A stretch of DNA of 64,000 nt from Candidatus Terraquivivens ruidianensis (GCA_023267975.1 JALNLA010000004.1:62001-126000), one strand, 5' to 3'; numbered from the stretch's first letter, positions 29,713 through 49,308 are shown. A program made the numbers and translations. The notes: generated by a model not told the origin, from the sequence alone.

Positions 29713-29714
29713 GA

Positions 29715-33015: not shown

Positions 33016-33989
33016 CTAAGCCGATGCTGGCCATAATACCCGGGGCAAACTGTGCCGGCTGTGACTACTCTCTCCTAGACTTAGGCGAAAAAGCTGTTGA
33101 AGTTCTGATGGCCGTGAATATAGCTTACTGGCCGACCGCTGCTGACCTAAAGTTGGAGGATTTAGAGAAGTTGCCAGATGGTTCTATAGACATAGTGCTC
33201 TTCGAGGGTGCCGTGAACAACGACGAGACTGAGGAGGTGGCCAAGCTCGCAAGGAAAAAAGCAAAGAACCTAATAGCGTTCGGAGCATGCGCCTGCTTTG
33301 GCGGTATACCTGGTCTTGCAAACGTAGCCTCAAAAGACAGTATTCTTCAGAAGGCATACGTAAAGACTCTGAGCACCGTTAACCAACAAGGAACGATACC
33401 CCATAAGCTGACGAGACTTGCTGACGAAGAATTGACAATACCAGAATTTCTCGAGACGGTTAAGTCGCTCGGTCAGGTGGTTAATGTAGATTATTATCTG
33501 CCAGGCTGTCCACCACCCCTCAAGCTGGTGGCCGAGGCACTGGCTGCTGCACTCTCTGGAAAGCTTCCGCCGAAGGGAACGGTGTTCGGTTCGATGAAGT
33601 CCGTCTGCGATGAGTGCAAGCGCGTCCGTGAGAATAAGAGGATAATGGAGATAAAGAGGTATCATCAATTCATCCCAGACCCTGAGAGGTGTCTCCTTGA
33701 GCAGAGCATAATTTGCATGGGTCCTGCAACTAGGGGCGGTTGTGATGCCGTATGTCCAACTATGAGCGTTCCCTGCAGAGGGTGTATGGGACCGACACCA
33801 GAATCCCAAGATCAAGGTGCCAGGATGCTATCTGCCTTGTCTTCTGTAGTAGGCTTAGAAGTTGAGACTGGTGTGAATGACGAAGAAGTTAGGAAAATCA
33901 TAGCACAAGTAAAGGACCCATTAGGGACGTTTTACAGATACGGTTTACCAAAATCAATAATGCGGAGGGCATGGGGTGTTAGAGAATGA
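33012..33989 (+). CDS. mvhG: F420-non-reducing NiFe hydrogenase small subunit
   Basis: The small subunit relays electrons from the NiFe site to MvhD through three 4Fe-4S clusters. From TTG 33012 (8-9 bases after AAGGAAGTGG and overlapping the mvhD stop) the protein has 325 residues. A longer frame from 32892 would lie over mvhD and adds a basic non-homologous stretch. Cysteine motifs are IPGANCAGCDYSLLD, FGACACFGGIPG, and a C-terminal set CLLEQSIICMGP...GGCDAVCPT...PCRGCMGP. Group 3c small subunit features are complete. Confidence 0.93.
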   Translation: MTKPMLAIIPGANCAGCDYSLLDLGEKAVEVLMAVNIAYWPTAADLKLEDLEKLPDGSIDIVLFEGAVNNDETEEVAKLARKKAKNLIAFGACACFGGIPGLANVASKDSILQKAYVKTLSTVNQQGTIPHKLTRLADEELTIPEFLETVKSLGQVVNVDYYLPGCPPPLKLVAEALAAALSGKLPPKGTVFGSMKSVCDECKRVRENKRIMEIKRYHQFIPDPERCLLEQSIICMGPATRGGCDAVCPTMSVPCRGCMGPTPESQDQGARMLSALSSVVGLEVETGVNDEEVRKIIAQVKDPLGTFYRYGLPKSIMRRAWGVRE

Positions 33990-35446
33990 GGAAGGTCGTA
34001 ACTATTCAGCCCATAACAAGGCTTGAGGGGCACGGTAAGATTTCAATATTTTTAGACGATGGTGGCAACGTTAAGGACGCTTACTACCAAGTCGTCGAGT
34101 TCAGGGGCTTCGAAAGGTTCTGCATAGGAAGACCTGTTGAGGAGATGCCCATAATAACGCCGAGAATCTGCGGCGTTTGTCCGTGGGCACACCATATGGC
34201 GTCAGCGAAGGCGGTAGATGCCGTCTATGGGGCTGAGTTGCCGGAGACCGCTAAGAAGATACGGGAGATGGCCTACAATATATTCTACGTACATGACCAC
34301 TCGGCAGTGTTCTACGCGCTTTCGGCACCAGACTTCGTCGTTGGACCCGATGCTCCTAGGGTTGAAAGGAATATCCTTGGCCTTATCGGAAAGGTCGGCT
34401 TGGAAACGGGAAAGAAAGTCATAAACGCTAGAATGGTGGCCACGAAGCTTTTGGAAAAGCTCGCTGGGAGAGCAATAATACCGACGTGCGCCGTTCCGGG
34501 CGGTGTCTCCAAGCCCTTAACAGAAGAGGATAGAAAAGAGATAGAGGAGGGCGCGAAAAAGCTGGTAGAATTCGGTCAGTTCACGCTGAAGATACTCGAG
34601 GATGTTGTCCTGAAGAACCAGAAGTACCTTGACTTGATTGTGGGCGACGTGTACAAGCATGAGACTTACTATATGGGTTTGGTTGACGAGAAAGGGCTGG
34701 TTAACTACTACGAGGGGAAGGTCAGAGTTGTAGACCCGAAGGGAAGAATCTACGCAGAATTTCACCCAAAAGACTACCTGAATTACATAGGCGAACATGT
34801 GGAACCATGGACTTATCTTAAGTTTCCATACTTGAAAGGTCTGGGCTGGAAGGGAATAGTTGACGGTGAAAAATCCGGCGCGTATAGGGTAGGGCCCCTT
34901 GGTAGGCTCAACGTAGCGAATGGGTTTGCGACGCCGCTCGCTCAAGAAGCATATGAAAGGTTCAAAGAGACCTTAGGCAAGCCAGCCCACGCAACGCTCG
35001 GATACCATTGGGCAAGGGTTATAGAGATACTTAATGCTGCCGAGAGGGCGCTCGAGTTAAGCAGGGACCCGGATGTAACTGGAAAGGACTTCAGGGTTCC
35101 TCTAACTAACACTCCTAACGAAGGCGTTGGTATCGTTGAGGCACCGAGGGGTACGCTCATCCACCACTACAAAACGGACCAAGAGGGCATATTGACCGAT
35201 GTCAACCTAATAGTCGCGACGACGCATAACAACGCGGGCATATGCATGTCCGTAAAGAAGGCATCGCAACAGCTCATAAAGGGCGGCAACGTAAGCGACG
35301 GTCTGCTCAACATGATAGAGATGGCGTTCAGGGCTTATGATCCATGCCTGGCATGCGGAACGCATGCGCTACCAGGACAGATGCCGCTTGACGTATGCAT
35401 ATATGATGCAGACGGAAAGCTTGTAGCTGAGATAAAGCGTCCTTGA
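33986..35446 (+). CDS. mvhA: F420-non-reducing NiFe hydrogenase large subunit (catalytic)
   Basis: The large subunit binds the NiFe(CN)2CO centre and oxidises or makes hydrogen. The 486-residue protein has the two cysteine pairs that ligate nickel: RICGVCPWAHH near 54 and DPCLACGTHAL near 450. About 25 residues follow the C-terminal His, a peptide that must be removed by an endopeptidase during maturation; the next gene encodes one. Group 3c by gene context (mvhDG, hdrABC). Its start overlaps mvhG by 4 bases. Confidence 0.95.
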   Translation: MRKVVTIQPITRLEGHGKISIFLDDGGNVKDAYYQVVEFRGFERFCIGRPVEEMPIITPRICGVCPWAHHMASAKAVDAVYGAELPETAKKIREMAYNIFYVHDHSAVFYALSAPDFVVGPDAPRVERNILGLIGKVGLETGKKVINARMVATKLLEKLAGRAIIPTCAVPGGVSKPLTEEDRKEIEEGAKKLVEFGQFTLKILEDVVLKNQKYLDLIVGDVYKHETYYMGLVDEKGLVNYYEGKVRVVDPKGRIYAEFHPKDYLNYIGEHVEPWTYLKFPYLKGLGWKGIVDGEKSGAYRVGPLGRLNVANGFATPLAQEAYERFKETLGKPAHATLGYHWARVIEILNAAERALELSRDPDVTGKDFRVPLTNTPNEGVGIVEAPRGTLIHHYKTDQEGILTDVNLIVATTHNNAGICMSVKKASQQLIKGGNVSDGLLNMIEMAFRAYDPCLACGTHALPGQMPLDVCIYDADGKLVAEIKRP

Positions 35447-35913
35447 AGAGGAAGCACGGAACAGTTGTAATAGGGCTCGGTAACCCGATACTTGGCGACG
35501 ATGCCGTAGGCCTGGTTATCGCATCTGAGCTAAGGAAGCGGATGGGTAGAATTGTTGACATTGTTGAGCTGAGTGCCGGAGGTTTAACCGTGGCAGAGGC
35601 CATGCTTGGTTACAGGAAGGCAATAATCGTAGATGCTCTGGTCGAAGAGGGTACCGTCCCTGGAAAAATCCTAAGGCTAACGTTTGAAGACCTTAAGACT
35701 ACACCCAAACGATTCATCGGTTTTCATGATATAGACCTCGTAACATCCGTTGAGCTCATTAAAGCTATCGATAGAGAATCTTTTCCAGACGAAGTAGTGG
35801 TTTTTGGAATAACCATTCAAAAACCGGGCTGCTATCAAGAGGGGCTAAGCGAGGAGGTAAAGACTGCCGTACCAAAATGCGTTGAGATGATTGAAGAAGA
35901 GTGCGGGCGTTAA
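35443..35913 (+). CDS. Hydrogenase maturation endopeptidase (HycI/FrhD family)
   Basis: This 156-residue protease cleaves the C-terminal extension of the NiFe large subunit after nickel insertion. Family residues are visible: VVIGLGNPILGDDAVGL at the N-terminus with the metal-sensing Asp/Glu, and LSAGGLTVAEAMLGYRKAIIVDALVE. A conserved His appears in IGFHDIDLV. The TTG start overlaps the mvhA stop, so it is the last gene of the hdr-mvh operon and very likely acts on MvhA. Confidence 0.92.
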   Translation: MKRKHGTVVIGLGNPILGDDAVGLVIASELRKRMGRIVDIVELSAGGLTVAEAMLGYRKAIIVDALVEEGTVPGKILRLTFEDLKTTPKRFIGFHDIDLVTSVELIKAIDRESFPDEVVVFGITIQKPGCYQEGLSEEVKTAVPKCVEMIEEECGR

Positions 35914-36112: not shown

Positions 36113-36880
36113 TTGGACACTAATTTAAAGCTATTGATGGATTTTATCTTTGGAACGTTACCTTGGGTTACTTATGCAACATTCTTATTCGGCATCTCTT
36201 TAAAGCTATACACATGGTTTTCGACATCGCCACCCAGCAGGACAGTACCATCCTCCATATCCAGAACCCCAATCTCAGCAGAATCCATAAGGCTTACGAT
36301 AGGACAGTTCATATACTTGTTACTGTTTCAGGGTCGTTTCATAAAACCCAAGGCTAAATCCTTTGTGCTCTGGCTCATGTCTTTTTCGGCGCATATATCA
36401 CTGTTTTTAATACTGTTTGGGCATCTAAGACCCATTGGAGTTTGGTCAGCGTCCTGGTTTGCATGGATGGCATCTGAGCAATTTTTAACGAGGGATCTAC
36501 CATTCTATCTCGGCTGGGTCGTACTAGGCGGCTTTAGCCTGCTGTTAGTGAGGAGAGTGGTTGATAGGTCAGTGAGAAGTATATCCGGCTTTGACGATTA
36601 CTTTTTGCTTGCTATTTTAATTACAATATTTCTCGCTGGAAACATGATGCGCGTATCGCCTTACATTCACGAGTCCTTTGCGCTCAGAATATCACCAAGC
36701 ATCGTGATGCAACTTAAGGAGACACCATCGTTAATTTGGCTTGCCGTGCATGGTATTGCGGCCCAGGTCCTGATAATGTACATGCCGTTCAGCAAACTAT
36801 TCCACATAATAGCATCACCCTTCACCATTCTCGCCTACAGCATCAGACACGGCAGGCTTTACGGAGGTATGAAAACATGA
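36113..36880 (+). CDS. Membrane cytochrome-b-like subunit (NarI/DsrM/HdrE type)
   Basis: The 255-residue protein has about five to six membrane segments. Histidines sit near their ends (FSAHISLFLILFGHLR; WLAVHGIAAQVLIMYMPFSKLFH), as in diheme b cytochromes of the nitrate-reductase gamma / DsrM / HdrE group that exchange electrons with the quinone pool. The TTG start follows a strong purine-rich site. It overlaps the start of the HdrD-like gene by 4 bases, so the two should form a membrane complex like HdrED or DsrMK. Heme number and quinone use are inferred. Confidence 0.75.
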   Translation: MDTNLKLLMDFIFGTLPWVTYATFLFGISLKLYTWFSTSPPSRTVPSSISRTPISAESIRLTIGQFIYLLLFQGRFIKPKAKSFVLWLMSFSAHISLFLILFGHLRPIGVWSASWFAWMASEQFLTRDLPFYLGWVVLGGFSLLLVRRVVDRSVRSISGFDDYFLLAILITIFLAGNMMRVSPYIHESFALRISPSIVMQLKETPSLIWLAVHGIAAQVLIMYMPFSKLFHIIASPFTILAYSIRHGRLYGGMKT

Positions 36881-38094
36881 AGCTGGAGACTCTAAAAGAA
36901 GTGTCACCGTTTACCATGCTGCAGCTCGAGACGTGCGCGAGGTGCGCCCACTGTGCAGAATACTGTCCAGTCTATGACGTTCTGAAGAAACCACAGGTCA
37001 TGCCAGGGGGCAGAGTTTCGGTTATGCTTAAGATAATAAAGAGTGGTGTGAATCCGTGGTTCGCGCTCTATCGATCAAAGACAAATAAGTTAAATGAGAT
37101 TGAGAACTACGTCGAAAACGTTTACAACTGTGCCCTCTGTGGCAGATGTATGGCCGTATGTCCGTTCGGGATACAGACGGATATACTTTGGGAACTGTTC
37201 AGAAAGATTGTTTATAGGTTCAATAAACACCCACCCGTACTCAAGGAGGTTGATAAGTTCATACTCAGCACATACAACGCTTATGGCGTGGGAAACGATG
37301 CAAGGTCGATGTGGGTTGATTATTTAGGTCTTGATAACGCTAAGATAAACGAACGTTCTGATGTTGTGTATTTTGTAGGATGCACATCTTCGTTTAAGGC
37401 CGTCGCGCAAGACATAGCTTATGCCACATCTCTGATCTTAAACCATGCAAGGTTAAGCTGGACACTCCTTGGCGAGGATGAGTGGTGCTGCGGTGCGCCG
37501 CTACTCATGATAGGAGACGAGGATGGTGCTAGGAAGATGGCTGAGCATAATGTTAAGGCAATAGAGAACTTAGATGCGAAGCTGGTAGTATCGGCATGTC
37601 CAGGGTGCGCAAGGACTATTAAGCAAAAGTATCCATCATTGATAGGTAGGGCTCTAAGGTTTAACGTTATGCATGTTATGGAGTTACTTGACCTATACAT
37701 CAGAAAGGAGCGCATGCCACTCAAAGGAATAGAAAAGGAATCTGCTCTTGTAACGTACCATGACCCGTGTGAGCTTGCAAGGCTCAGTGGTGTGATAGAC
37801 GAGCCGAGACACGTTATTCATGCTGTAACGTTTTCTTTTAGGGAGATGCCTGAGGGCAAGAAAGACGTGCGCTGTTGTGGGGGAGGGGGCATCCTCCAAG
37901 CGGTGAACGACGAGTTAAGGTTAAGCATAGCCGAAAAAAGGGTGAGACAAGCTCAGGCCCTTGAAGCCGAAATCCTCACCTCCGCATGCCCAGCCTGCAA
38001 AATAACGCTGATGGATGGGTTAAAAAAGATCGGCGTAAAGATGCAGGTTCTAGATGTGACAGAATTATTTGCCAGGAAACTCGGCTTAATGTAG
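36877..38094 (+). CDS. HdrD/DsrK-like iron-sulfur protein, copy A
   Basis: From ATG 36877 (overlapping the cytochrome gene) the protein has 405 residues. Two N-terminal 4Fe-4S motifs (C20, C23, C26, C30 in CARCAHCAEYC; then CALCGRCMAVC) are followed by two complete CCG domains: VGCTSSFK, DEWCCGAPLLM, SACPGCART; and HDPCELARL, VRCCGGGGIL, SACPACKIT. This is the HdrD/DsrK catalytic architecture, able to hold a noncubane cluster that reacts with disulfides. The partner cytochrome lies directly upstream and a GcvH-like gene follows. The natural substrate is unknown. Confidence 0.88.
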   Translation: MKLETLKEVSPFTMLQLETCARCAHCAEYCPVYDVLKKPQVMPGGRVSVMLKIIKSGVNPWFALYRSKTNKLNEIENYVENVYNCALCGRCMAVCPFGIQTDILWELFRKIVYRFNKHPPVLKEVDKFILSTYNAYGVGNDARSMWVDYLGLDNAKINERSDVVYFVGCTSSFKAVAQDIAYATSLILNHARLSWTLLGEDEWCCGAPLLMIGDEDGARKMAEHNVKAIENLDAKLVVSACPGCARTIKQKYPSLIGRALRFNVMHVMELLDLYIRKERMPLKGIEKESALVTYHDPCELARLSGVIDEPRHVIHAVTFSFREMPEGKKDVRCCGGGGILQAVNDELRLSIAEKRVRQAQALEAEILTSACPACKITLMDGLKKIGVKMQVLDVTELFARKLGLM

Positions 38095-38118
38095 GTTTTC
38101 CGAATCTTTTAACTGATA

Positions 38119-38193
38119 TATACATGTATAAGTCAGTATAACATGCTAAGTCTTTATACGACGTAGGTTATACTTCTCTATATTGTTATAACA
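38119..38193. promoter_or_regulatory. Two perfect palindromes in the promoter of the second module
   Basis: TATACATGTATA (38119-38130) and TGTTATAACA (38184-38193) are perfect palindromes within a 117-base gap. Between them lie inverted GTATAAC (about 38136) and GTTATAC (about 38167) half sites. The second palindrome ends 5 bases before the ribosome-binding GAGGTG (38199-38204). The repeated GT(T)ATAA(C) words suggest a multi-site operator. Confidence 0.4.
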
Positions 38194-38211
38194 TTTGAGA
38201 GGTGAAAAGAC

Positions 38212-38580
38212 TTGTCAGAGAAAAGCATGCTTCGGGAGCGGCTGTTGACATACGACCATTTCTGGGTTAAGATTGAGCACAAATCTCCGACACCATTGGT
38301 AAAGATAGGCCTGAAAGAGGCCACCACTAAGGCAGTGGGGCAGATAGAGGCCTTCAGGGCCTTGCCGAAGGGTAGATGCGTTAACAAAGGATATCCGTTT
38401 GGGTCAATAGAGCACGGAAGAAAGATACTCATACTGCGTAGCCCTATAACAGGTTCGATAGTTGAAGTAAACGAAGAGCTTATCAAAAATCCGCAGCTGA
38501 TAAACGAGGACCCTTACGGTAAAGGTTGGATAGCCATCCTGAAGCCAAGCAACGTTGAGGAATTGGATGCATTATTCTGA
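38212..38580 (+). CDS. GcvH-like protein A without the lipoyl lysine
   Basis: A 122-residue protein with the full hammerhead fold of glycine cleavage H protein: HFWVKIEHKSPTPLVKIGL, LPKGRCVNKGYPFGSIEHG, RSPITGSIVEVNEEL and NEDPYGKGWIAILKPS. In true H proteins the lipoyl Lys lies seven residues before the S-P of the hairpin; here that position is Arg70 (EHGRK), while LbpA at 44978 has Lys70 in an ungapped alignment. It is therefore probably not lipoylated, though Lys71 is next door. TTG start after GAGGTG. It precedes the second cytochrome and HdrD-like genes. Confidence 0.85.
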   Translation: MSEKSMLRERLLTYDHFWVKIEHKSPTPLVKIGLKEATTKAVGQIEAFRALPKGRCVNKGYPFGSIEHGRKILILRSPITGSIVEVNEELIKNPQLINEDPYGKGWIAILKPSNVEELDALF

Positions 38581-39460
38581 AGACAAGGCAAAGATACTTC
38601 TACGGTGGAGAATGATGGTGCCGGATGCGGTATTTTTTGCATCTACATTTTTTCTAATCGGGATGGTATCCCTAATCGTCGGAGCCTTATGGAATATTAG
38701 GATATGGTTTCTCGGAGCGGAGAGTGTTGTAGGAACGATTAAGAAGGCGCTGTTAACTGTCCTAAATCCTCGTTCCTTAGCGGCCATTATCAAGGCGTTC
38801 CTAGTCAAGGTCTTTGGTCAGCATAGACTCTACAAGTATGAAAGGCTGAGGGGGTTAGAGAAAGCATCCTTTGTTTCTTTTTACGTTTTGTTAATACTTT
38901 CGAACCACATAGCCGCGGACATAGCAACAGGTGTTTCGAGTATTCAAGAGCTGATGGTAGAATTCTTTAGATCACCCTTCTTTCCTGGCTACATATTCTA
39001 TGAGCTAGGCACTGAGCTACCATTGATTTGGGCACTCTTCCTTCTGATCGATAATCTCTCGATGGCCGTTGTGTTGCTATTTGCCGAGGGGCTTGCGATA
39101 CATAGAAGGTTCATCAAAAAGAACTTCATGTTTGGTACGAAAGAAGACGCCATTGGTCTTTTCATGCCTGTGATATGGTTCCTCTTCAGGTACATGGCCG
39201 AGGCTGCAACAATTGTGAAGTTTGGCTTTCCGGACTCGGGTAAGTTCATGTTCATAGCATATGGTATAGCCCAACTCATGGCGGGTCTAAGTCCTGCACA
39301 AATCGAGTTGCTCTACAACGTCCTCTGGTCGACCTCTGGATTCTTCCTTGGAGTCTTCGTGGGCGCCATACCCCACTCGGGCAGGCTCTGGCACGCATTC
39401 GCTGGTCCTATTGCCATGTTGGCCAATTCTGTACCTAAAACTGTAAGGAGTGTGAAGTAA
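38567..39460 (+). CDS. Membrane cytochrome-b-like subunit B (NarI/DsrM type)
   Basis: From ATG 38567 (6 bases after TTGAGG; a TTG at 38555 is the alternative) the protein has 297 residues with about six membrane segments. Candidate heme or structural histidines occur in FGQHRLYKYE, LLILSNHIAADIATG, AIHRRFIKK and AIPHSGRLWHAFAGP. It is a different sequence from the 36113 cytochrome but the same type. It overlaps the end of the GcvH-like gene and lies 3 bases before the HdrD-like copy B, implying a second membrane complex. Confidence 0.7.
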   Translation: MHYSEDKAKILLRWRMMVPDAVFFASTFFLIGMVSLIVGALWNIRIWFLGAESVVGTIKKALLTVLNPRSLAAIIKAFLVKVFGQHRLYKYERLRGLEKASFVSFYVLLILSNHIAADIATGVSSIQELMVEFFRSPFFPGYIFYELGTELPLIWALFLLIDNLSMAVVLLFAEGLAIHRRFIKKNFMFGTKEDAIGLFMPVIWFLFRYMAEAATIVKFGFPDSGKFMFIAYGIAQLMAGLSPAQIELLYNVLWSTSGFFLGVFVGAIPHSGRLWHAFAGPIAMLANSVPKTVRSVK

Positions 39461-39463
39461 GGT

Positions 39464-40699
39464 ATGGCAAAAGTAAGAAGCTTACCGTTAAGCGTTAAGC
39501 AGATGATAGAGCTTGACGGTTGTGTCAGGTGCGAGATATGTAGGGAGGAGTGCTCGCTGTACAGGCTCCTGAACTCTAATCCGCATCCCTTGGGTTTCCC
39601 CACCAGCTGCGGCGGGATAATCAGACGATTTAGGCCTCTGGTTCGTAAAGACCATAGTTTGAAGGCAAAACTTTTTGGACTAAGGTCTCCGTCGGATGAA
39701 GAGGTGTGGGAGCTTGCCGATGCTCTCTTCTTGAACTGCTCGCTGTGTGGCAGGTGTAGCGCATTCTGCCCAATCGGTATAGAGACGCCATCGCTCATAA
39801 CCTCCATGAGGGAGTACTTTATGGAGATTCTTGGCAACGTTCATTGCGCTGTTGAGTTCTTGGACAACCTCCATCGCATGGTTAACGAGACAAAGAACGT
39901 TTTTGGTGTGGATAACTCCGCAAGAACCAACTGGTCACTATACACAGGAGTAGATGTTAACGTTAAAGACAGTGCCAACGTAGTGTATTTTGTCGGTTGC
40001 ATCTCGTCTTATCAAGGTAGGGCGCAGGACATATCTGCGGCCATAACCTCGATATTAAATTACGTAGGCGAGGATTGGACGCTTTTGAAGGATGAGGCTT
40101 GCTGTGGTCATCCGCTCACGGTGAGTGGCGGGATTAGGAAGGCTGTAAATTTAGTAAGACACAATTTAGAGCAGTTAGCATCCATTGGTGCTAAGACCGT
40201 TGTGACGGGCTGTCCAGGCTGTTACCTTGCCATAAAGCATGAATGGCCAAAGTTGCTGGGTCGTGAGTTCGACTTTGAGGTGCTCCACTTCACTGAGCTA
40301 CTCAACAGATACATAACTAATGGCAAATTAAAGATACCAATCCTAGAGGCTAGAGTTACGTACCACGACCCCTGTGAGCTGGGTAGGCTCGGAGGCATTA
40401 TCGAAGAACCTAGGAAGGTTATCAAGCGAGTAACCCGAGAGTTCATTGAACCATACGGTCATGGTATGGAGGGTATATGCTGCGGCTCTGGTGGTATGCT
40501 AAAAGCGTTGAACCCAGAGCTTTCGGGACAGCTTGCTATTCAAAGGTTGAAGATGTTGAAGGTCACTGAGCCTGAATACATACTTTCAGCATGCCCGACA
40601 TGTGTACAAGCCTTTGCCTCCGTTGCGCCAAAAATTGACGGAAAGCTTAAAGTGTTAGACCTAAGTCAGTTGATTGCCCAGCAGAACAATCTGTTATAA
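39464..40699 (+). CDS. HdrD/DsrK-like iron-sulfur protein, copy B
   Basis: The 411-residue protein has an N-terminal cluster motif C20-C23-C26-C30 (CVRCEICREEC), a second CSLCGRCSAFC near 100, and two CCG domains: VGCISSYQG, DEACCGHPLTV, GCPGCYLA; then HDPCELGRL, GICCGSGGML, SACPTCVQA. An insert of about 25 residues after the first cluster (NPHPLGFPTSCGG) distinguishes it from copy A. It is most like copy C at 43773, sharing the WxxYTGxDVNxKDSAxVVYFVGCI stretch, so B and C are the more recent duplicates. Partner of the 38567 cytochrome. Confidence 0.88.
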   Translation: MAKVRSLPLSVKQMIELDGCVRCEICREECSLYRLLNSNPHPLGFPTSCGGIIRRFRPLVRKDHSLKAKLFGLRSPSDEEVWELADALFLNCSLCGRCSAFCPIGIETPSLITSMREYFMEILGNVHCAVEFLDNLHRMVNETKNVFGVDNSARTNWSLYTGVDVNVKDSANVVYFVGCISSYQGRAQDISAAITSILNYVGEDWTLLKDEACCGHPLTVSGGIRKAVNLVRHNLEQLASIGAKTVVTGCPGCYLAIKHEWPKLLGREFDFEVLHFTELLNRYITNGKLKIPILEARVTYHDPCELGRLGGIIEEPRKVIKRVTREFIEPYGHGMEGICCGSGGMLKALNPELSGQLAIQRLKMLKVTEPEYILSACPTCVQAFASVAPKIDGKLKVLDLSQLIAQQNNLL

Positions 40700-40701
40700 A
40701 T

Positions 40702-41799
40702 TTAACTTTCGTCCGAGTTCTTAGTCGGGCACTCAATAGTAACGAATTTTCCAGATTCCTCTAGAGACCTGTTTATCGCCACCTCTGCAATCTGACGATA
40801 ACATAAACCAATTTCCTTAAGAGCGTGTATTATTCGGAAGAGGTAGTGCCTGAATGATTTACTATTGCCGGCCAATTTTTCACTACTCTCTATTTTCTCC
40901 CCAACTAAACTGTTAATTTGAGCTATTGCCCTATTTGCCAGCAAAAGGTCCCTTGATAGAAGAGAATCTATTGCATTTTGAGATATGTGCTTTAGTGTTG
41001 CATAAAAATCCGCGCACCAATCTATGATACGTTTCTCAATCCCGCACCCACTTGTGAATATTTCATATGTCGAAAGCGCAATTGATTCACTCAAGTTGAC
41101 AGCCCTCTTAAGCAAAACTAACACCAGTCTATTACCGAGCAACCATAGAGTTGACTTTATCCCGAGGGCCTCCCGTACACTTGGGTCGCTGACTGCTCTT
41201 ATAAGCTGCCTTACCGTTAACCAGTAAAGTCTATCACATTCTTCACCTATACTCATAATACGCTTAATCATGTCTTGGTTACCACTTGACAACATACTTA
41301 CAGCGCTCTCAAGCATATCCACTACAAGGCTATGAAACCTCCTGATAGAGCTGTCCATGGAAGGCCTTACGGGATTTGAGAGATTCTGAATAATTATGAT
41401 GTTTTCAGAGCTGTCTACGATGTGGACTCCAATGAGCTTCCTTGTCACTGCACTAACTTCCTCAATCTGTCTCTGCGTGAACGGTCTTCTGGATTGTAGC
41501 CAAATCGTGTCGTGACCAGCTACGTAAGCCCCTATCAAAGCCCTAGTGATAGAATGAGGCTCTACACATGCGTCCACATTTATTATACAGACCGGTGGTC
41601 CAACTCCGCCTTCTCGCTCAACTTTGCTTAATTCTAACGAATCACCTGTCTGTCTTACGACCAAGTAATCGTTCTCCTTTATACCAACAGAATCAGCCCA
41701 AGCTTTTGGTAGTGTAACACATAACGCTGACCGGCCAAGCTTCATTACCTTTCTTAAAGTGCGGCCATACCCATACAAACGGCTACTTTTTATGCTCAA
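40702..41799 (-). CDS. AbrB/SpoVT-PhoU domain regulator, copy 1
   Basis: The 365-residue protein starts with a swapped-hairpin AbrB-type DNA-binding domain (KLGRSALCVTLPKAWADSVG, then KENDYLVV, residues about 15-50). A long helical region follows with PhoU-like three-helix bundles (around 140-350, with ESAVSMLSSGNQDMIKRIM). Archaeal proteins of this type are annotated PhoU-like regulators. No phosphate transport genes are near; instead it sits inside the redox locus, divergent from GcvH-like B. A paralogue lies at 45985. I infer it controls this locus, possibly through the palindrome in front of it. Confidence 0.8.
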   Translation of the reverse strand: MSIKSSRLYGYGRTLRKVMKLGRSALCVTLPKAWADSVGIKENDYLVVRQTGDSLELSKVEREGGVGPPVCIINVDACVEPHSITRALIGAYVAGHDTIWLQSRRPFTQRQIEEVSAVTRKLIGVHIVDSSENIIIIQNLSNPVRPSMDSSIRRFHSLVVDMLESAVSMLSSGNQDMIKRIMSIGEECDRLYWLTVRQLIRAVSDPSVREALGIKSTLWLLGNRLVLVLLKRAVNLSESIALSTYEIFTSGCGIEKRIIDWCADFYATLKHISQNAIDSLLSRDLLLANRAIAQINSLVGEKIESSEKLAGNSKSFRHYLFRIIHALKEIGLCYRQIAEVAINRSLEESGKFVTIECPTKNSDES

Positions 41800-41832
41800 T
41801 TCTATGTAAAAACGCTACGTCTGGTATTTATG

Positions 41833-41850
41833 TGTAACGTATACGTAACA
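41833..41850. promoter_or_regulatory. 18-base palindrome between the regulator and GcvH-like B
   Basis: TGTAACGTATACGTAACA at 41833-41850 is a palindrome with 8 of 9 pairs matched; its core ACGTATACGT is perfect. It lies between the divergent AbrB-PhoU gene (start 41799) and GcvH-like B (start 41928), about 34 bases before the former. An autoregulatory operator is likely but inferred. Confidence 0.5.
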
Positions 41851-41927
41851 TTTGTCTGACATATGAAACAATACGTCATGAATAATATCGCGCTGTAATT
41901 AAGTGCATTTGGAGGTGGTCTAAGAAA

Positions 41928-42329
41928 ATGGCAATAACCATTTCTGCGCTCGTAGGGAAGTTGTTCATCTCGAAGGCTAGTCATGGAATGTGGGCGAGGT
42001 TTGAGCAAGCAGGCGATGGTTCTGAAATACTTGTACGTGTTGGTCTTGTGAGGGATGTTGTGGAGTCTGTGGGCACGATAGAGTTCGTTAGGGTCCTTCC
42101 GAAAGGGCGTCTAATTACTAGGGGGCATCCTTTCGGCTCCGTAGAACACGGTATGCGTGTGGTGCTCCTAAGAAGTCCAGTATCCGGCTGGATAGTTGAG
42201 GTCAACGAGGCGCTGAGGGGGAGGCCTGAGCTCATAAACGAGGACCCGTATGGTGAAGGTTGGGTCGCCGTGCTTAGGCCAATTAACTATGAAGAAGACG
42301 CAGGGTATTTTAGTGAATTAACAAAATAG
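41928..42329 (+). CDS. GcvH-like protein B without the lipoyl lysine
   Basis: A 133-residue H-protein homologue: ILVRVGLVRDVVESVGTIEF, LPKGRLITRGHPFGSVEHG, RSPVSGWIVEVNEAL and NEDPYGEGWVAVLRP. The lipoyl position, seven residues before S-P, is Met76 (EHGMR) and no Lys is adjacent, so lipoylation by the usual route is excluded. The EHG that precedes it is shared with GcvH-like A but differs from the ETG of the lysine-bearing LbpA. GGAGGTGG lies upstream of the ATG. The FAD oxidase gene follows after 2 bases. Confidence 0.85.
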   Translation: MAITISALVGKLFISKASHGMWARFEQAGDGSEILVRVGLVRDVVESVGTIEFVRVLPKGRLITRGHPFGSVEHGMRVVLLRSPVSGWIVEVNEALRGRPELINEDPYGEGWVAVLRPINYEEDAGYFSELTK

Positions 42330-42331
42330 GT

Positions 42332-43771
42332 ATGGTGGCCATAATGGCCACATCTAACAATTTTTTAAGAGAACTTGTTAACAAGCTGGGACAAGAGTGC
42401 GTTTCCGTAGATTCGCTCGAAAAGCTCGTTTATGCCCACGACTTAGCGGCTTTACCCAAGTCTGTAAAGTTACTCTTTAACACGACCCCTGACGCAATAG
42501 CACGACCGAGGAGCATAGAACATGTAGCAGAAATTATTAGGCTGGCGAATGAGTACAAAATCCCCGTTATAGCTCGAGGTGGTGCCACATGGGGGTTCGG
42601 GGGTACAGTGCCAGTGAGGGGTGGCATAATTTTGGATCTGACGGGGCTTAACAGGGTAGTTAATTTAGACGAAAAGAATGGGTTGCTGACCGTCGAGTGC
42701 GGGGTCGTATGGGAAGACATTATGCGTTTTTTGCAGGAGACGAATTGGGAGCTACCAACGTACCCTTCGAGTGCGTTAAGCTCAACCGTTGGCGGTTGGG
42801 CGGCTACTGGTGGAATAGGTTATGGTTCCCTTAAGTACGGCCCATTCGTCAAGAACGTTGCCAAGGTAACCGCTGTCCTTCCAGATGGAAGGGTCGTCGT
42901 GGCTGACGATAACAGCAACCCTAATCTATCACAGCTGTTTGGGTCCGAGGGCATCTTGTGCATATTTGCTGATTTAACTTTGAAGTTGATTCCGAAGAGC
43001 GAGGTAGAGAGGCCGTTTATGGCAAACTTTAGCAACTTTGCCAATGCCGTGATGGCAGCTCAGGAGGTTTTGAGGTTAACAAACCCACATTCTCTCGTTC
43101 TAAGGACTTTTGGATTCGTTAGGGCAAAGGACTACATCGAGTCTGATACATATTTCTTTGGATGCTTTAATGGTAACAGGTACGATGTTGACAGGCAACA
43201 CCTTACATTGGGTAGCATCGTAAATCGATATCGCGGGTACCTTACCCCAGAAGACGAGGCGAGGCGTGAATGGGAAGAGAGGTTTTATACACTAAGGATT
43301 AAGAAGTGGGGACCAAGTATCCTAGGCAACGAGTTCATAATACCAGTACATAAAATACTAGATATTGTAAAGTATTGCTGGCATCTAGGCAACCAAGCAC
43401 ATTTAGATGTAGAGGTTGAAGTAATGTTTATATCAAGAGATAAGGCCCTAATGTTCCAACTCTTCCTTTGTGACGAAAGAAAGTCCATCAGATACCTTAC
43501 GGAGGCTGCCATAACGAAGAAAGTGCTTGACGCTGCCATAAAGGCTGGAGGCAAACCTTACGGTTATGGATTATGGAACTTTCCATTCATGGAGAGGGCA
43601 GAGCCGGAGAAAAAAAGGGAGCTCAAAAGTATGAAAGGTGTGCTGGACCCACAGAACGTACTAAACCCGGGCAAAACGATAGGCGCTGAGCTCATGTTAG
43701 GTATCCCTCTTCCTGGAAAGCTATACAGCACGTTCATGGATGGCGTGTGGGTTTTAAGGAAGGTGGTTTAA
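42332..43771 (+). CDS. GlcD-like FAD-linked oxidase (VAO/PCMH family)
   Basis: The 479-residue protein has the PCMH FAD-binding domain (IPVIARGGATWGFGGTVPV, IILDLTGLNRVVNLDEKNGL, SSTVGGWAATGGIGYGSLKY) and a C-terminal FAD-oxidase C domain ending LDPQNVLNPGK. These are features of glycolate, D-lactate and alkyl-DHAP-type oxidases. Gene order with the downstream two-CCG protein matches GlcD-GlcF and archaeal D-lactate dehydrogenase pairs. The substrate is probably a 2-hydroxyacid, by family only. The ATG at 42332 or 42344 may be used. Confidence 0.82.
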   Translation: MVAIMATSNNFLRELVNKLGQECVSVDSLEKLVYAHDLAALPKSVKLLFNTTPDAIARPRSIEHVAEIIRLANEYKIPVIARGGATWGFGGTVPVRGGIILDLTGLNRVVNLDEKNGLLTVECGVVWEDIMRFLQETNWELPTYPSSALSSTVGGWAATGGIGYGSLKYGPFVKNVAKVTAVLPDGRVVVADDNSNPNLSQLFGSEGILCIFADLTLKLIPKSEVERPFMANFSNFANAVMAAQEVLRLTNPHSLVLRTFGFVRAKDYIESDTYFFGCFNGNRYDVDRQHLTLGSIVNRYRGYLTPEDEARREWEERFYTLRIKKWGPSILGNEFIIPVHKILDIVKYCWHLGNQAHLDVEVEVMFISRDKALMFQLFLCDERKSIRYLTEAAITKKVLDAAIKAGGKPYGYGLWNFPFMERAEPEKKRELKSMKGVLDPQNVLNPGKTIGAELMLGIPLPGKLYSTFMDGVWVLRKVV

Positions 43772-43772
43772 G

Positions 43773-44942
43773 ATGCTTGTCCTGCCAAAACTACAGTTAG
43801 AGGACGTCTTCGCTTGCGCTCAGTGCGGCTATTGTATGAAAAGGTGTCCCGTTTATTACTTTTTGGGATGGGAGTCTACATCGCCAAGGGGTAAAATATT
43901 CGCCCTTAAAGAAATTTTAGGAAATGATGGTAGATTGGACGAGCAAAGCATACGTAAACTCGGAAAGTCCTTCTCTACAAGGTTTTTCAACTGTACGTTT
44001 TGCGGGTTCTGTAGAGAAGTCTGTCATGTAGAGATTGATTTACTGGAGATATGGTCAAAAGTTAGGGAGATACTGTATGACCATGAAGTTGTGCCCGAGA
44101 GCATTATCAAGTTATCTGAAACAGTAAAAAAATCAAAGAATATTTACATGATGGACAATTTATCAAGGACGGATTGGATTACTTACACCGGTGCCGACGT
44201 AAACTTTAAGGATTCGGCAGAGGTCGTCTACTTTGTTGGTTGTATAACATCGTTCTCCGGTAGAGTTCAGTCAATTGCGCAGGCAGTTTCCTCAATCCTA
44301 AATTCTGCGAATGAGGATTGGACGTTGCTGAAGGACGAATGGTGCTGCGGTCATCCACTCGCTCTCTCCGGCGCTATTAGAGAGGCTAGGGTTTTGGCGC
44401 TCCACAACGTCGAGATGATAGAGTCTACAGGTGCAAAGAAAGTTGTGACAGGCTGTCCAGGCTGTTACCTTGCGCTTAAGCATGAGTATCCGAGACTTTT
44501 AGGGAAAAAACCTAGGTTTGAAGTGCTGCATTCCAGCCAACTACTTGACACCTACATAACTTCTGGAAAGCTTGTAGTCCCTAAGGCAGACATAACTTTA
44601 ACCTATCACGACCCCTGCGAGCTTGGAAGAATATCCGGTGTCATCAGAGAACCTCGGGTAGTCCTGCAAAGCGTTACGGATACATTCATAGAGCCCGAGT
44701 ATTTTGGAAGAGAATCAATATGCTGCGGCTCTGGAGGTCTGCTGAAGGCGGTCAACCCATCTCTGGCCGATAACCTTACCCAGAGGAGGTATGGCATGCT
44801 AGCATCCACGAACGCTGAGGTGATTGTCTCGGCATGTCCTGCATGTGTTCAAGCACTTGCTCAAACAGCTACCGCGATACAAAACGGCAAGCGTGTTATC
44901 GATATATCGCAACTGATAGCCGAGCAATTGGGTTTAATGTAG
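43773..44942 (+). CDS. HdrD/GlcF-like iron-sulfur protein, copy C
   Basis: The 389-residue protein begins one base after the GlcD-like gene stop. Cluster motifs are C15-C18-C21-C25 (CAQCGYCMKRC) and CTFCGFCREVC; CCG domains are VGCITSFSG, DEWCCGHPLAL, GCPGCYLAL and HDPCELGRI, SICCGSGGLL, SACPACVQA. As GlcF it would take electrons from the flavoprotein. No cytochrome is next to it, unlike copies A and B, so its electron acceptor may be soluble or shared with those complexes. Confidence 0.87.
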   Translation: MLVLPKLQLEDVFACAQCGYCMKRCPVYYFLGWESTSPRGKIFALKEILGNDGRLDEQSIRKLGKSFSTRFFNCTFCGFCREVCHVEIDLLEIWSKVREILYDHEVVPESIIKLSETVKKSKNIYMMDNLSRTDWITYTGADVNFKDSAEVVYFVGCITSFSGRVQSIAQAVSSILNSANEDWTLLKDEWCCGHPLALSGAIREARVLALHNVEMIESTGAKKVVTGCPGCYLALKHEYPRLLGKKPRFEVLHSSQLLDTYITSGKLVVPKADITLTYHDPCELGRISGVIREPRVVLQSVTDTFIEPEYFGRESICCGSGGLLKAVNPSLADNLTQRRYGMLASTNAEVIVSACPACVQALAQTATAIQNGKRVIDISQLIAEQLGLM

Positions 44943-44977
44943 CAATAAAAATTTTTAGTTTTAAACCATCAGGTTAA

Positions 44978-45406
44978 CTATTTAATAATCTTCGGTATCT
45001 CCTCCTGTAGCCACGGGACCATCTCTTCAACTTTTGAGAACAAACCTTTTAGTTCGTCCTCAAGTTTTGAAGGCTTTATAATGGCCAACCACCCTTTTCC
45101 GTATGGGTCTTCATTCAGAAGCTTAGGCTGAGACTTCAGAGCTTCGTTGACTTCGACTATCGTTCCGGACACGGGAGACTTCAGGGGTCCAACCCATTTT
45201 CCAGTTTCCATGGTCCCTATGGGCTTCCCTGCATCCACGGCCTTACCCTTTGGCATGAGCCTTACGTACACTATCGGACCAGCCGCTTGTTGCGCTAAGT
45301 CTGTAACACCAACCCTTACGACGTCGCCCTCGATTTTTAACCATAGATGGTCCTTGGAATAGTACAAACCTTCTGGAAACTCGTACTTGTCGAATAGTTT
45401 CACCAT
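44978..45406 (-). CDS. lbpA: Lipoate-binding GcvH-like protein (LbpA type), lysine present
   Basis: From ATG 45406 (after GGGTGTGG; a GTG at 45439 is the upstream alternative) the protein has 142 residues. H-protein motifs: YYSKDHLWLKIEGDVVRVGV, PKGKAVDAGKPIGTMETGK with lipoyl Lys70, LKSPVSGTIVEVNEAL and NEDPYGKGWLAIIKPS. A C-terminal helix EELVPW-like extension (about 120-142) is extra. No gcvT or gcvP is nearby, while a dedicated lipoate assembly cluster lies 3 kb downstream. That points to an LbpA-type carrier of Hdr-like systems rather than glycine cleavage, by context. Confidence 0.8.
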   Translation of the reverse strand: MVKLFDKYEFPEGLYYSKDHLWLKIEGDVVRVGVTDLAQQAAGPIVYVRLMPKGKAVDAGKPIGTMETGKWVGPLKSPVSGTIVEVNEALKSQPKLLNEDPYGKGWLAIIKPSKLEDELKGLFSKVEEMVPWLQEEIPKIIK

Positions 45407-45439
45407 AACTACCACACCCTTTTTATCAAACCTAATCAC

Positions 45440-45475
45440 AAATAAGCATTGCTTATTTTTAAAAATTCTTTAAAA
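45440..45475 (-). promoter_or_regulatory. lbpA promoter with perfect 19-base palindrome
   Basis: AAATAAGCA (45440-45448), a central T, and TGCTTATTT (45450-45458) form a perfect 9+1+9 palindrome. It lies directly upstream of lbpA, next to A/T-rich TATA-like sequence (TTTTTAAAAAT, about 45456-45466, on the reverse strand). Binding here would block transcription start, so a repressor operator is likely. Confidence 0.55.
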
Positions 45476-45490
45476 TAATTAATTTGCGCT

Positions 45491-45946
45491 TTAGGAATGA
45501 TTTAGGCTTACGACCTCGTACTCTGCCGTTAAAGCTATGGATGGTTTTATGGACCTGGTTAGATGGCAGTATTCCATAGCTAACTCTGCGCACCTCGTAG
45601 CCTTCTCAACTTCCTGGCTTTCTGCTAAAACCTTTAACTTGATTTTTATATCTGTGATCTTGTATCCTCCGCTATCCAGCATAACCTCTCCGTCGATATT
45701 AACTTCTATACCATCTATCTTTGCGCCCAGTCGTCGCTGAAAGTAAACGAACGTAGTTATCATGCATCCCCCTAAGGCAGAAAGGAATACCTCATCCGGG
45801 CATGGATACCTTCCCAAGCCACCGAAGTCCTTAGGCATGTCCAGGCGAATGCTACCCCCTTTGGTAAAGGCCTCAGCACCTGTAGAATGGTCCCAGTTCA
45901 ACCTTACGTTAAAAATTAAGGAGCTTGGCTTAGCTTTGTTACTCAT
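45491..45946 (-). CDS. OsmC/Ohr-family thiol peroxidase-like protein
   Basis: A 151-residue OsmC-fold protein with both redox cysteines in their usual places: PDEVFLSALGGCMITTFVYF (first Cys) and AMEYCHLTRSI (second Cys). OsmC/Ohr proteins reduce organic hydroperoxides, and in bacteria Ohr is recycled by lipoylated proteins. Placement next to the lipoyl carrier LbpA (same strand, upstream) is therefore suggestive of a direct partnership, by inference. Confidence 0.85.
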   Translation of the reverse strand: MSNKAKPSSLIFNVRLNWDHSTGAEAFTKGGSIRLDMPKDFGGLGRYPCPDEVFLSALGGCMITTFVYFQRRLGAKIDGIEVNIDGEVMLDSGGYKITDIKIKLKVLAESQEVEKATRCAELAMEYCHLTRSIKPSIALTAEYEVVSLNHS

Positions 45947-45984
45947 ACCGTTCTGACGTTGCTATATTTATTTAAACATAATGT

Positions 45985-47085
45985 TTAGATTTTCTCCTCA
46001 AAACTACCGGTATCTACGCTCACGTATTCACCAGATTCCTCAACTGACCTATTAATTGCAACCTCCGCTATGTATCTGTAGTTTAGGACGATATTTCTTA
46101 AAGACCTGACTATGCCTGAGAGAGACGGGCAAATGTTGACGTCGTACTTTTTTGGGGCTACCATCTCCGCTGCCTCAAGAACTTTCACAAGCTTGTTCGC
46201 AGATTCGATGGCGTTATTGCCGCCTACCAAGTCTCTTGTGATAAGGGAATCGATTGCCGTGTTTGATATCTTTCTAATCTCCTCACGTATGTTGGTAAAC
46301 CAACGAGTAGTCTCTGCATCAAGCTTATAACCAAGCTTCAGTAAGTTTTCGACGTATCTATATATGCACTCGCTATCTGTAACTATACTCTTCAACATTC
46401 TAGCAACCGCCCTATTCCCTAAAAGCCAAAGGTGAGACCTTATACCAAGCTCCTTTGCTAAAGCTCTGTCATTGACTGATAGAAGTAGCTGCCTTGTTAC
46501 GAGCCAATAAACTTTGTCACATTCTATCCCAAGCGCTTTGATATCTTCAAGTTGCTTTGGATCCTCTTCACCTAAAAGGACGTCTATTGCCATCTCATAC
46601 ATACTGGAAGATATTAAGTGGAGTCTGCGGATAGAGCTATCGATTGTCGGTCTAGAAGGGTCAGCAAGGCTCTGAAGTATGATTATGTTATCGGTCTGCT
46701 CTGTTACGTGAAGCCCTATGAGCATCTCAGTCAAAGCCCTTATCCCTTCGATGTCGTTAGGCCCAAAACCATTTCTCGTCTGTATCCAAATGATTTTGTG
46801 GCCGACCATATATGCTCCGATTATGATTCTCCATAGCATATTTTGTGAAGTGCAAACATCTGCGTTAATGACACAGACAGCGGGCGGGACCTCAAATTCG
46901 CTATCAGCTTTCCTTATTTTGATGTAGTTTTCTTCGGCATCATCCATGAGGACATAGTCACCCTCTTTTAGCTTGATTGAGGATGTCCATTCTTTAGGTA
47001 GCGTCACGGCTAGGGCAGACCTGCCCAGCTTTATGACCTTACGGAGGTGCGGGCGCATATCAAGCATCGTATTCCGTCTTCTCAA
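45985..47085 (-). CDS. AbrB/SpoVT-PhoU domain regulator, copy 2
   Basis: A 366-residue paralogue of the regulator at 40702 with the same layout. The AbrB-like domain has KLGRSALAVTLPKEWTSSIK and KEGDYVLM, and the helical PhoU region follows. Shared blocks include RPxIDSSIRRxHxxxxxM, ECDxxYWLxxRQL, LWLLGNR and YRxIAEVAINRSxEESG, so the pair arose by duplication. It lies upstream of osmC on the reverse strand and diverges from hypE. The two copies flank the GcvH-GlcD-HdrD module. Confidence 0.8.
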   Translation of the reverse strand: MRRRNTMLDMRPHLRKVIKLGRSALAVTLPKEWTSSIKLKEGDYVLMDDAEENYIKIRKADSEFEVPPAVCVINADVCTSQNMLWRIIIGAYMVGHKIIWIQTRNGFGPNDIEGIRALTEMLIGLHVTEQTDNIIILQSLADPSRPTIDSSIRRLHLISSSMYEMAIDVLLGEEDPKQLEDIKALGIECDKVYWLVTRQLLLSVNDRALAKELGIRSHLWLLGNRAVARMLKSIVTDSECIYRYVENLLKLGYKLDAETTRWFTNIREEIRKISNTAIDSLITRDLVGGNNAIESANKLVKVLEAAEMVAPKKYDVNICPSLSGIVRSLRNIVLNYRYIAEVAINRSVEESGEYVSVDTGSFEEKI

Positions 47086-48231: not shown

Positions 48232-49308
48232 CTACATACCAAATACGTTAACGCGCAATAGTTCTTTCTTAACAAAAGTTTCTCTCTTCTCGTCATCAAA
48301 GTCACTTACGAACGCATGCATCCTAAGCAAAAACTCCTTCAATCCCTCTATCTTTGATTCATAAATCGATACTAACTTTATACTCTCTTCCTGCGATGTC
48401 TTAATAGATTCCGCAGCGGCCACTCCGCTCTCGATCGCGAACCTTATACCCTCACCTGAGAAAGGGTTGCATAACCCCCCGGCATCACCAACAAGCACTA
48501 CATTCTCGAGTCCTGCGGACGGTATGGTAAACGGTATGGGCGCAATCTCTCTTATCTCCATCCTTATAGGCTTAAACGAAAACTCATTTTTTAACAAACC
48601 TAAAAGCCTATCCGTACAAGACTGTATATTGGCCGTTCCACTTTTAAAGCCAAAGCCTACGAAAAATTTTCCGTCCTTGGGTATTACGTAACCATAAGTT
48701 GGTACGATTTTACCGTTAAGAATTACATAAAAATTATTTTCAAACTTGCCTTCTGCATCCCAAACTTCTTGCACGACGGTGAGTACTCTAGACCTATAAT
48801 TTGGAAATAAGCAAGAACGAACTTTTGAAATTGCGCCATCGGCGCCGACCACGTAAGTAGCTTCAAAGATCTCTAGGCTGCCATTCACTCTTACCTTTAA
48901 CATGTTGTTCTTTCCTAGCTTCAGTTCAGTAAATTCCGCGCCGTACAAAAGACGGACATTACGTGCCTTGGCCTCTTCCCTCAACCACTCATCAAAAGCA
49001 ACCCTACGTAAATTGAGTAGTGTATAATTTCTCATTACACCGCCGTTGTGCTTCCCGCTGGGTGGTACATAGAAAAGTCCCAATCTTTCTGGCACAGAGA
49101 GTACAAACTGGGGAGTGCTCAACCCTAACTCAAGCTCTAACAATTCTTTCGTTATGGTTGGTGTAACACCACCGCAAGCCTTCCTCCTGTAACTTGTTGA
49201 TTTTTCCAGCAACGCCGTCCTAAAGCCCATCTCAGCACATTTGATTGCACATACAGCGCCTGCAGGACCGCCGCCGACTACTACCACGTCAAACCTATGC
49301 ACTTTCAT
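48232..49308 (-). CDS. Geranylgeranyl-reductase-like flavoprotein, LipT candidate
   Basis: The 358-residue protein has the FAD dinucleotide motif [20 protein letters not shown] at the N-terminus, [12 protein letters not shown], and the second FAD motif [20 protein letters not shown] (near 268) of the geranylgeranyl reductase family. Such enzymes normally saturate archaeal lipid chains. Here it overlaps the lipoate ligase gene by 14 bases in a cluster with two LipS-type radical SAM genes, the arrangement described for LipT in the bipartite lipoate assembly pathway. LipT is the preferred reading; lipid reduction remains possible. Confidence 0.65.

Follow-up and report, generated by a model that had tools for sequence, protein, structure and literature searches.

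Enzymes of the Hdr type occur widely in archaea that do not carry out methanogenesis, and the disulfide on which they act there is a stated puzzle (PMC10667645, PMC9723716); in Korarchaeia, the retained HdrABC and HdrD/GlcD have been called puzzling (PMC10667645). The same question, what such enzymes act on, is raised by three HdrD-like genes in a 64,000-nucleotide stretch of Candidatus Terraquivivens ruidianensis (GCA_023267975.1 JALNLA010000004.1:62001-126000; 'the window', to which positions refer). An original prediction from this DNA had described positions 36113-47085 as a redox locus of three repeated HdrD cassettes with GcvH-like proteins. Every gene named in that interval was confirmed present, and the real extent of the locus was found to be 29284 (hdrCBA-mvhDGA) to 53032 (lipS2). 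Judged from its sequence, the locus probably encodes a lipoyl-GcvH-centred disulfide electron-transfer system, in which one lysine-bearing protein, GcvH-C, would be the protein-bound carrier for the HdrD modules.

The host, a hot-spring archaeon, has been placed in Caldarchaeales (Aigarchaeota), with Candidatus Terraquivivens tengchongensis and T. tikiterensis providing the nearest named loci. Neither Mcr alpha (PF02249) nor the glycine decarboxylase P-protein (PF02347) was found in its genome (1.30 Mb, 97% complete), with control genomes giving matches for both, so neither CoM-S-S-CoB turnover nor glycine cleavage accounts for the genes of the locus. The genome encodes one dihydrolipoamide dehydrogenase, and a second, housekeeping LipS1 and a canonical GcvH are found elsewhere in it, which makes the lipoate genes of the window an additional set. 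The canonical GcvH (ESVK) is located at G000:C1:60070 (L050:8035-8490), although the genome is without the P-protein.

Three GcvH-like proteins are encoded in the window: GcvH-A (38212-38580, plus strand; GCV_H, 89 bits), GcvH-B (41928-42329, plus; 78 bits) and the LbpA-like GcvH-C (44978-45406, minus; 132 bits; corrected start most likely at 45406). When aligned with canonical GcvH, the lipoyl lysine was seen to be replaced by Arg in GcvH-A (EHGRK) and by Met in GcvH-B (EHGMR; Thr in the congeneric genome G031), while GcvH-C retains it (ETGKWVG) in five of five genus copies. Among the three, only GcvH-C can, by this alignment, carry lipoate; its sequence, read directly, contains no Cys. Ratios of dN/dS, which are rough since synonymous sites were partly saturated, indicated purifying selection on GcvH-A (omega 0.11-0.15) and GcvH-B (0.08-0.20), and very strong purifying selection on GcvH-C: here they were 0.01-0.04 where HdrDs are present, rising to as much as 0.10 in comparisons with G031, the genome that lost its HdrDs, which also gave the highest GcvH-C dN. 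The suggestion that GcvH-like proteins serve as adaptors thus fits GcvH-A and GcvH-B, with their missing lipoyl lysine and purifying selection, but overlooked GcvH-C as the likely carrier. In the GcvH tree, GcvH-A and GcvH-B formed one clade (100/98) with two proteins of Candidatus Scotarchaeum otlingeri (Arg at the site in both) and, from Nitrososphaeria archaeon JZ1_bin.63, a third with Lys (EYGKRK), set apart from canonical GcvH and from the type in which the lipoyl Lys is followed by Trp ('KW type'). To judge by the tree, this clade is a small GcvH subfamily, seen before CytbB-HdrD-B or GlcD-HdrD-C. A further lysine-less GcvH (site GSID) was noted in two related genomes (L046:7411-7821 in G021 and L048:7892-8299 in G022), between helicase-like and class-II aminoacyl-tRNA synthetase-like genes and with no Hdr genes near. 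Elsewhere in G021 (L046:12289-13365), a KW-type GcvH is directly followed by a TlpA/thioredoxin-like membrane-anchored protein, a possible non-Hdr partner, and L263 (G180) has three GcvH-like genes within about 4 kb (motifs ETAKT, ESEKN and ESAKA).

Genes for the attachment of lipoate lie 3-8 kb from GcvH-C, all on the minus strand: a LipT-like FAD oxidoreductase of the geranylgeranyl-reductase superfamily (48232-49308; TIGR02032, 158 bits), a lipoate-protein ligase Lpl(AB)-DUF116 fusion (49295-50875; LplA-B_cat, Lip_prot_lig_C and DUF116), and the lipoyl synthases LipS1 (50880-51887; NF053742, 233.6 bits, above the cut-off of 230) and LipS2 (51917-53032; NF053743, 223.5 bits, cut-off 270, E=4e-66). 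LipS2 is below its curated cut-off and LipT is without a model of its own; both are clear by E-value and neighbourhood. The fused ligase is rare, scoring more than 450 bits versus less than 225 bits for all other ligases; comparison with plasmids gave ordinary ligases only. LipT adjoins Lpl-DUF116 also in L056, L163, L171 and L074. The congeneric genome G035, which is without the locus, has only the housekeeping GcvH and LipS1 and no match to the window-type Lpl. LipS1 was rejected as an anchor for finding such loci, as most LipS1 genes of the phylum (40 'long' and 20 'short' loci) have no Hdr neighbours. Since LipS1 is generally unlinked to Hdr, the link is specific to Lpl-DUF116/LipT and the KW type of GcvH.

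As had been predicted, three HdrD-like genes with two CCG domains each stand directly after partner genes on the plus strand, domain matches and coordinates being in agreement: HdrD-A (36877-38094; CCG x2, Fer4_8), HdrD-B (39464-40699; CCG x2) and HdrD-C (43773-44942; CCG x2). The start of HdrD-A is most likely the ATG at 36877 over the CytbA stop (overlap ATGA, 4 bp, 36877-36880), TTG 36736 being unlikely, and operon-like gaps separate CytbB from HdrD-B (3 bp), GcvH-B from GlcD (2 bp) and GlcD from HdrD-C (1 bp). In each of the three proteins the two four-Cys ferredoxin motifs are present and the two C..CC..CxxC sets are complete, with CPGC/CP[AT]C and the pair of CCG cysteines retained. NCBIfam equivalog models for DsrM and DsrK were missed (47.7 versus 300 bits and 114 versus 400 bits, respectively). 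In the tree, HdrD-A was placed among HdrDs that are linked to CytbA in Bathyarchaeota and elsewhere (100/100), HdrD-B next to its L056 and L057 orthologues (100/100), and HdrD-C with other Terraquivivens HdrDs. Local triplication is ruled out by this tree, each HdrD being in a different clade with its own partner type; on this phylogeny, the three modules are older and were brought together, with no recent triplication. The term 'repeated cassettes' is accordingly loose: the partner pairs are tight, but the HdrDs are only 38-49% identical in pairwise comparison and cassette A has no GcvH. An additional HdrD in G033 (L201:5654-6808), 41% identical to HdrD-B and within the HdrD-C clade, stands beside a permease-like gene, without GcvH.

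These cysteines bear on a first rival explanation, in which the HdrD modules are plain EtfD-like or GlcF-like wires from flavoprotein to quinone that never touch a disulfide, the GcvHs being present for some other reason. Among solved structures, HdrD-B is most closely related to mycobacterial EtfD (9ojn), a cytochrome b-CCG fusion with a NarI-like cytochrome, two [4Fe-4S] and two CCG domains that acts as a wire from ETF to menaquinone (PMC13083937); a cytochrome b-HdrD fusion is present in L057, and GlcD and NarI-type partners are typical of wires. In EtfD, however, one CCG Cys is Thr and the His of CPHC caps the other cluster, silencing catalysis (PMC13083937), whereas HdrD-A, HdrD-B and HdrD-C have neither change and keep the catalytic cysteines. 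The N-terminal site, intact in the window HdrDs, is degenerate in the ordinary HdrD that accompanies GlcD in this genus (L299, L300), and the linkage to GcvH and lip genes would be left unexplained; the wire explanation is considered unlikely. An EtfD-like motif was also tried as a discriminator over all HdrDs and rejected, as the retrieval pattern contained CCG and nearly all sequences were hence full-Cys, so that the motif informs on the window genes only.

The partners of the three HdrDs differ. CytbA (36113-36880, plus; PF02665, E=1e-11) is a NarI/DsrM-type di-heme cytochrome b, with four His at spacings of 10 and 18, the pattern of NarI, kept in most homologues. CytbB (38615-39460, plus; corrected start most likely at 38615), a polytopic membrane protein, gave no Pfam or NCBIfam match, and only His98 and His260 are invariant among it and the orthologues of L056 and L057. 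Its predicted model was poor (AlphaFold, pLDDT 50) and too weak for structure search, and CytbB was rejected as a proven NarI relative (hhalign probability of 1.5% against CytbA). The designation 'cytochrome b-like' holds for CytbB by position and helix content only; with two invariant His, it is at most a putative cytochrome. The partner of HdrD-C is a GlcD-like VAO/PCMH flavoprotein (42332-43771, plus; FAD_binding_4) without the HxGDGNxH metal motif of D-2-hydroxyacid dehydrogenases, which makes a hydroxyacid substrate doubtful, and the 'hydroxyacid-type flavoprotein' of the original prediction was not upheld. It carries a DER[KR] signature and belongs to a metal-less subfamily separated from ordinary GlcD by a wide score gap (at least 485 bits versus at most 267 bits). 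Metal-less GlcD was found beside GcvH/lipoate genes in five of five genera (Terraquivivens, G165, G138, Hecatella and an actinobacterial metagenome-assembled genome), while all 14 loci with ordinary GlcD have HxGDGNxH and none has a GcvH within 1.5 kb, a contrast that is indicative because the compared flanks were unequal in length. The actinobacterial locus (L076:461-7119) comprises GcvH, a RACo/AcsV-like corrinoid activator, Lpl, LipA (bacterial lipoyl synthase), metal-less GlcD and HdrD.

In the proposed system, GcvH-C would be lipoylated by the adjacent LipS1/LipS2/Lpl/LipT set and would shuttle two electrons as lipoamide/dihydrolipoamide, its disulfide being opened or closed by the paired CCG clusters of the HdrD modules. 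CytbA-HdrD-A (and CytbB-HdrD-B) would exchange these electrons with the membrane quinone pool, and GlcD-like-HdrD-C with a flavoprotein substrate that is probably no classical hydroxyacid, while HdrABC-MvhADG probably couples H2 to ferredoxin via the same disulfide. GcvH-A and GcvH-B, which are not lipoylatable, most likely serve cassettes B and C as permanent docking subunits that would position or gate the carrier. The call of a lysine-bearing, LbpA-like GcvH together with OsmC was upheld by the GCV_H and PF02566 matches and the lysine of ETGKWVG. Relatives of this OsmC-family thiol peroxidase (45491-45946, minus) are reduced by lipoylated proteins, and the window protein probably draws on dihydrolipoyl-GcvH-C to detoxify peroxides, as a side branch.

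LbpA is the established partner of sHdr (PMC6067878) and is matured by LipS1/S2/sLpl/LipT, of which LipS1/S2 occur well beyond sulfur oxidisers (PMC10332631). The locus shares with sHdr-LbpA a KW-type lysine-bearing GcvH homologue, dedicated Lpl, LipS1, LipS2 and LipT genes, and CCG-domain Hdr proteins, and by analogy it is best read as a variant of the LbpA/Hdr theme, with GcvH-C playing the part for the HdrDs that LbpA plays for the sHdr of sulfur oxidisers. The likeness also favours a sulfur-trafficking version, in which lipoyl-GcvH-C would carry sulfane sulfur or persulfide that is oxidised or reduced by the HdrDs, with electrons passing to quinone/H2 chemistry (PMC6067878, PMC10332631); sulfide oxidation has been predicted for many Aigarchaeota (PMC6053391), and OsmC-type thiol chemistry is found alongside. 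However, the shdrC1B1AhypC2B2 set is absent from the locus and its surroundings, which hold only hdrCBA-mvhDGA and three hdrD, and no sulfurtransferase gene was recognised in the block itself, annotation of the window being incomplete elsewhere. Most LbpA have two conserved Cys, some archaeal ones being without (PMC6067878); GcvH-C, unlike bacterial LbpA, has none. The locus further differs from sHdr-LbpA in its cytochrome b-HdrD, GlcD-like-HdrD and HdrABC-MvhADG modules and its two lysine-less GcvH paralogues, and sulfur trafficking is judged quite improbable.

Returning to the disulfide carrier system, losses within the genus followed module boundaries. All cassettes are present in G033 and G034; in G034, apparent frameshifts interrupt some genes (CytbA, Lpl). 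Decay in G032 is confined to cassette B (GcvH-A broken, a large internal deletion in CytbB, HdrD-B split with Cys ligands lost), cassettes A and C and GcvH-C being intact. In G031, the stretch between regulator A and the hydrogenase protease is without CytbA, HdrD-A, GcvH-A, CytbB and HdrD-B, that between GcvH-B and GcvH-C is without GlcD and HdrD-C, and OsmC, with 5 stops, is a pseudogene; GcvH-B, GcvH-C, both regulators, the lip set and hdrCBA-mvhDGA are retained. Decay of GcvH-A thus goes with that of CytbB-HdrD-B, and decay of OsmC with loss of the HdrDs. The earlier view of one functional system around a disulfide carrier is sustained by the loss and decay of cassettes as units, along with conserved order, fusions and the full cysteine sets of the HdrDs.

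A search for the ordered gene set across archaea, as had been suggested, showed the order GcvH-CytbB-HdrD to be kept in three archaeal lineages. Within the class, the other 38 genomes gave no CytbB, and orthologues 57-61% identical and in the same order were recovered from two distant lineages, JZ1_bin.63 (L056) and Scotarchaeum (L057). L056 reads LipS2-LipS1-Lpl-LipT-GcvH-CytbB-HdrD-B, with GcvH-C, HdrD and two GlcD-like genes on the opposite strand; L057 contains OsmC, the cytochrome b-HdrD fusion (636 aa), a regulator B homologue, GcvH-GcvH-CytbB-HdrD-B and GcvH-C. Related parts were found as Lpl-LipT, GcvH and HdrC-HdrB-GlcD-HdrD-LipS1 in L163 (Bathyarchaeota), LipS2-LipS1-Lpl-LipT-GlcD-HdrD in L074 (Hecatella), GcvH-CytbA-HdrD in L059, and HdrA-HdrD-GcvH in L239, where a GlcD-HdrD fusion of 903 aa directly follows a KW GcvH. 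OsmC is next to GcvH also in L171 (MvhA, HdrA, HdrC-HdrB-GcvH-OsmC-LipS2-LipS1-Lpl-LipT) and L242 (MvhAGD-HdrABC, OsmC, GcvH).

The association was quantified over loci found earlier plus others drawn from a list in which 398 Thermoproteota genomes were ranked by GcvH, a neighbour being hdrA/B/C/D or mvhD within 3 kb. Hdr neighbours were present for 16 of 28 KW-type GcvHs versus 8 of 52 other lysine-bearing GcvHs (Fisher p=2e-4), and for 13 of 25 versus 8 of 52 when loci first found via HdrD similarity were left out (p=0.002); both p-values are optimistic because the genomes are related. KW was also seen in GcvH homologues of probable Sulfolobales (L190, L278-L280), one beside HdrB, HdrC and HdrA. 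It is not the sole Hdr-linked type, as the non-KW, non-canonical motifs ESTKATS and ESVKC also occur near HdrABC; the former marks a second Hdr-linked GcvH type beside HdrA/HdrB genes in L283, L285 and L286 (G227, G098 and G252). Chance or regulatory clustering of a hydrogenase, paralogous redox modules and a lipoate pathway in a small genome, which the hyp genes and Tes interleaved with the block and the plastic gene content within the genus might suggest, is disfavoured as very improbable by the recurrence of the same parts in many genera, in re-shuffled order and with fused partners, by their co-decay and by the statistical association.

Several observations weigh against a carrier role of GcvH-C for the HdrD modules, or against parts of it. 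G031 retains GcvH-C and the lip set without HdrDs, so GcvH-C has at least one other partner, for which HdrABC-Mvh would fit as the obvious candidate; it also retains GcvH-B without GlcD and HdrD-C, so GcvH-B is not solely their subunit. The L056 orthologue of GcvH-A has Lys (EYGKRK), and lysine loss is therefore not universal in its clade. KW GcvHs without Hdr neighbours occur in G021, G022, G347 and G358, and the quinone and heme content of CytbB is at most putative. HdrD genes without GcvH had been named as evidence that would tell against the prediction, and the outcome was mixed: several Bathyarchaeal CytbA-HdrD-A pairs have no GcvH within short flanks, but every CytbB-HdrD-B and metal-less GlcD-HdrD pair encountered has GcvH or lipoate genes beside it.

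Other known systems resemble the locus in part. A glycine cleavage H protein works with GcvP, the partner not found here, and of its lipoyl lysine only GcvH-C has a counterpart. In Culexarchaeia, which are without full CoM/CoB synthesis, a GcvH beside Hdr genes was suggested as holder of an unknown disulfide (PMC9723716); the Ehe cluster concerned (HdrBC/group 4 hydrogenase) is of one type, with HdrBC, HdrA2B2C2, SdhA and CdhA, and no HdrD modules, lipoate-kit linkage or lysine-less paralogues were reported there (PMC9723716). Methanogen and Korarchaeia HdrDE and HdrD-GlcD/Fpo likewise combine a two-CCG HdrD of full Cys complement with a membrane or GlcD partner (PMC10667645, PMC6783470); here there is no Mcr, GlcD is metal-less, and GcvH/lipoate genes take the place of the CoM-S-S-CoB context. 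For Aigarchaeota, DsrC has been proposed as the Mvh-HdrABC acceptor (PMC6053391). A literature search, which covered neither subscription papers nor preprints, turned up no paper that connects GcvH and HdrD in archaea. The following appear, provisionally, to be new: the lysine-less clade of GcvH, the metal-less subfamily of GlcD, the systematic link of GcvH to Hdr, and a dedicated lipoate kit beside modules of the HdrD and HdrABC-Mvh kinds. Lipoyl-GcvH-C is a concrete, testable candidate for the disulfide of 'methanogen-type' enzymes in non-methanogens, with its own maturation kit included, and the locus ties two protein groups, this GcvH clade and this GlcD subfamily, to that candidate. More tentatively, the lipoamide of KW-type GcvH may replace CoM-S-S-CoB in many non-methanogenic archaea as a general carrier linking H2, the quinone pool and metal-less GlcD-HdrD, with lysine-less paralogues docking or gating the modules. 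If true, lipoate, known from 2-oxoacid and glycine metabolism and from sHdr sulfur oxidation, would also serve anaerobic energy metabolism in general.

The remaining genes of the locus flank these modules. Upstream, on the plus strand, are hdrC (29284-29712; Fer4), hdrB (29709-30590; CCG x2; TIGR03288, 181 bits, below the cut-off of 345), hdrA (30590-32569; HdrA-type domain set), mvhD (32566-33015; FlpD match, 193 bits), and mvhG (32892-33989), mvhA (33986-35446) and a hydrogenase maturation protease (35443-35913), the last three named from their translations; mvhD-mvhG-mvhA-protease adjoin the locus also in G033, G032 and G031. Two AbrB-PhoU regulators had been proposed, and AbrB/MazE domains were found in both minus-strand genes, regulator A (40702-41799; PF04014 and PF01895) and regulator B (45985-47085; PF04014), with PhoU listed for regulator A only. 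A third homologue of this AbrB/PhoU-type regulator is present in the same genome about 6 kb from the housekeeping LipS1 (L192:16051-17136). Between the HdrD/GcvH block and the lipoate genes stands hypE, and just downstream of hypBA the window encodes the tetraether lipid synthase Tes (55740-57326; NF045702, 728 bits).

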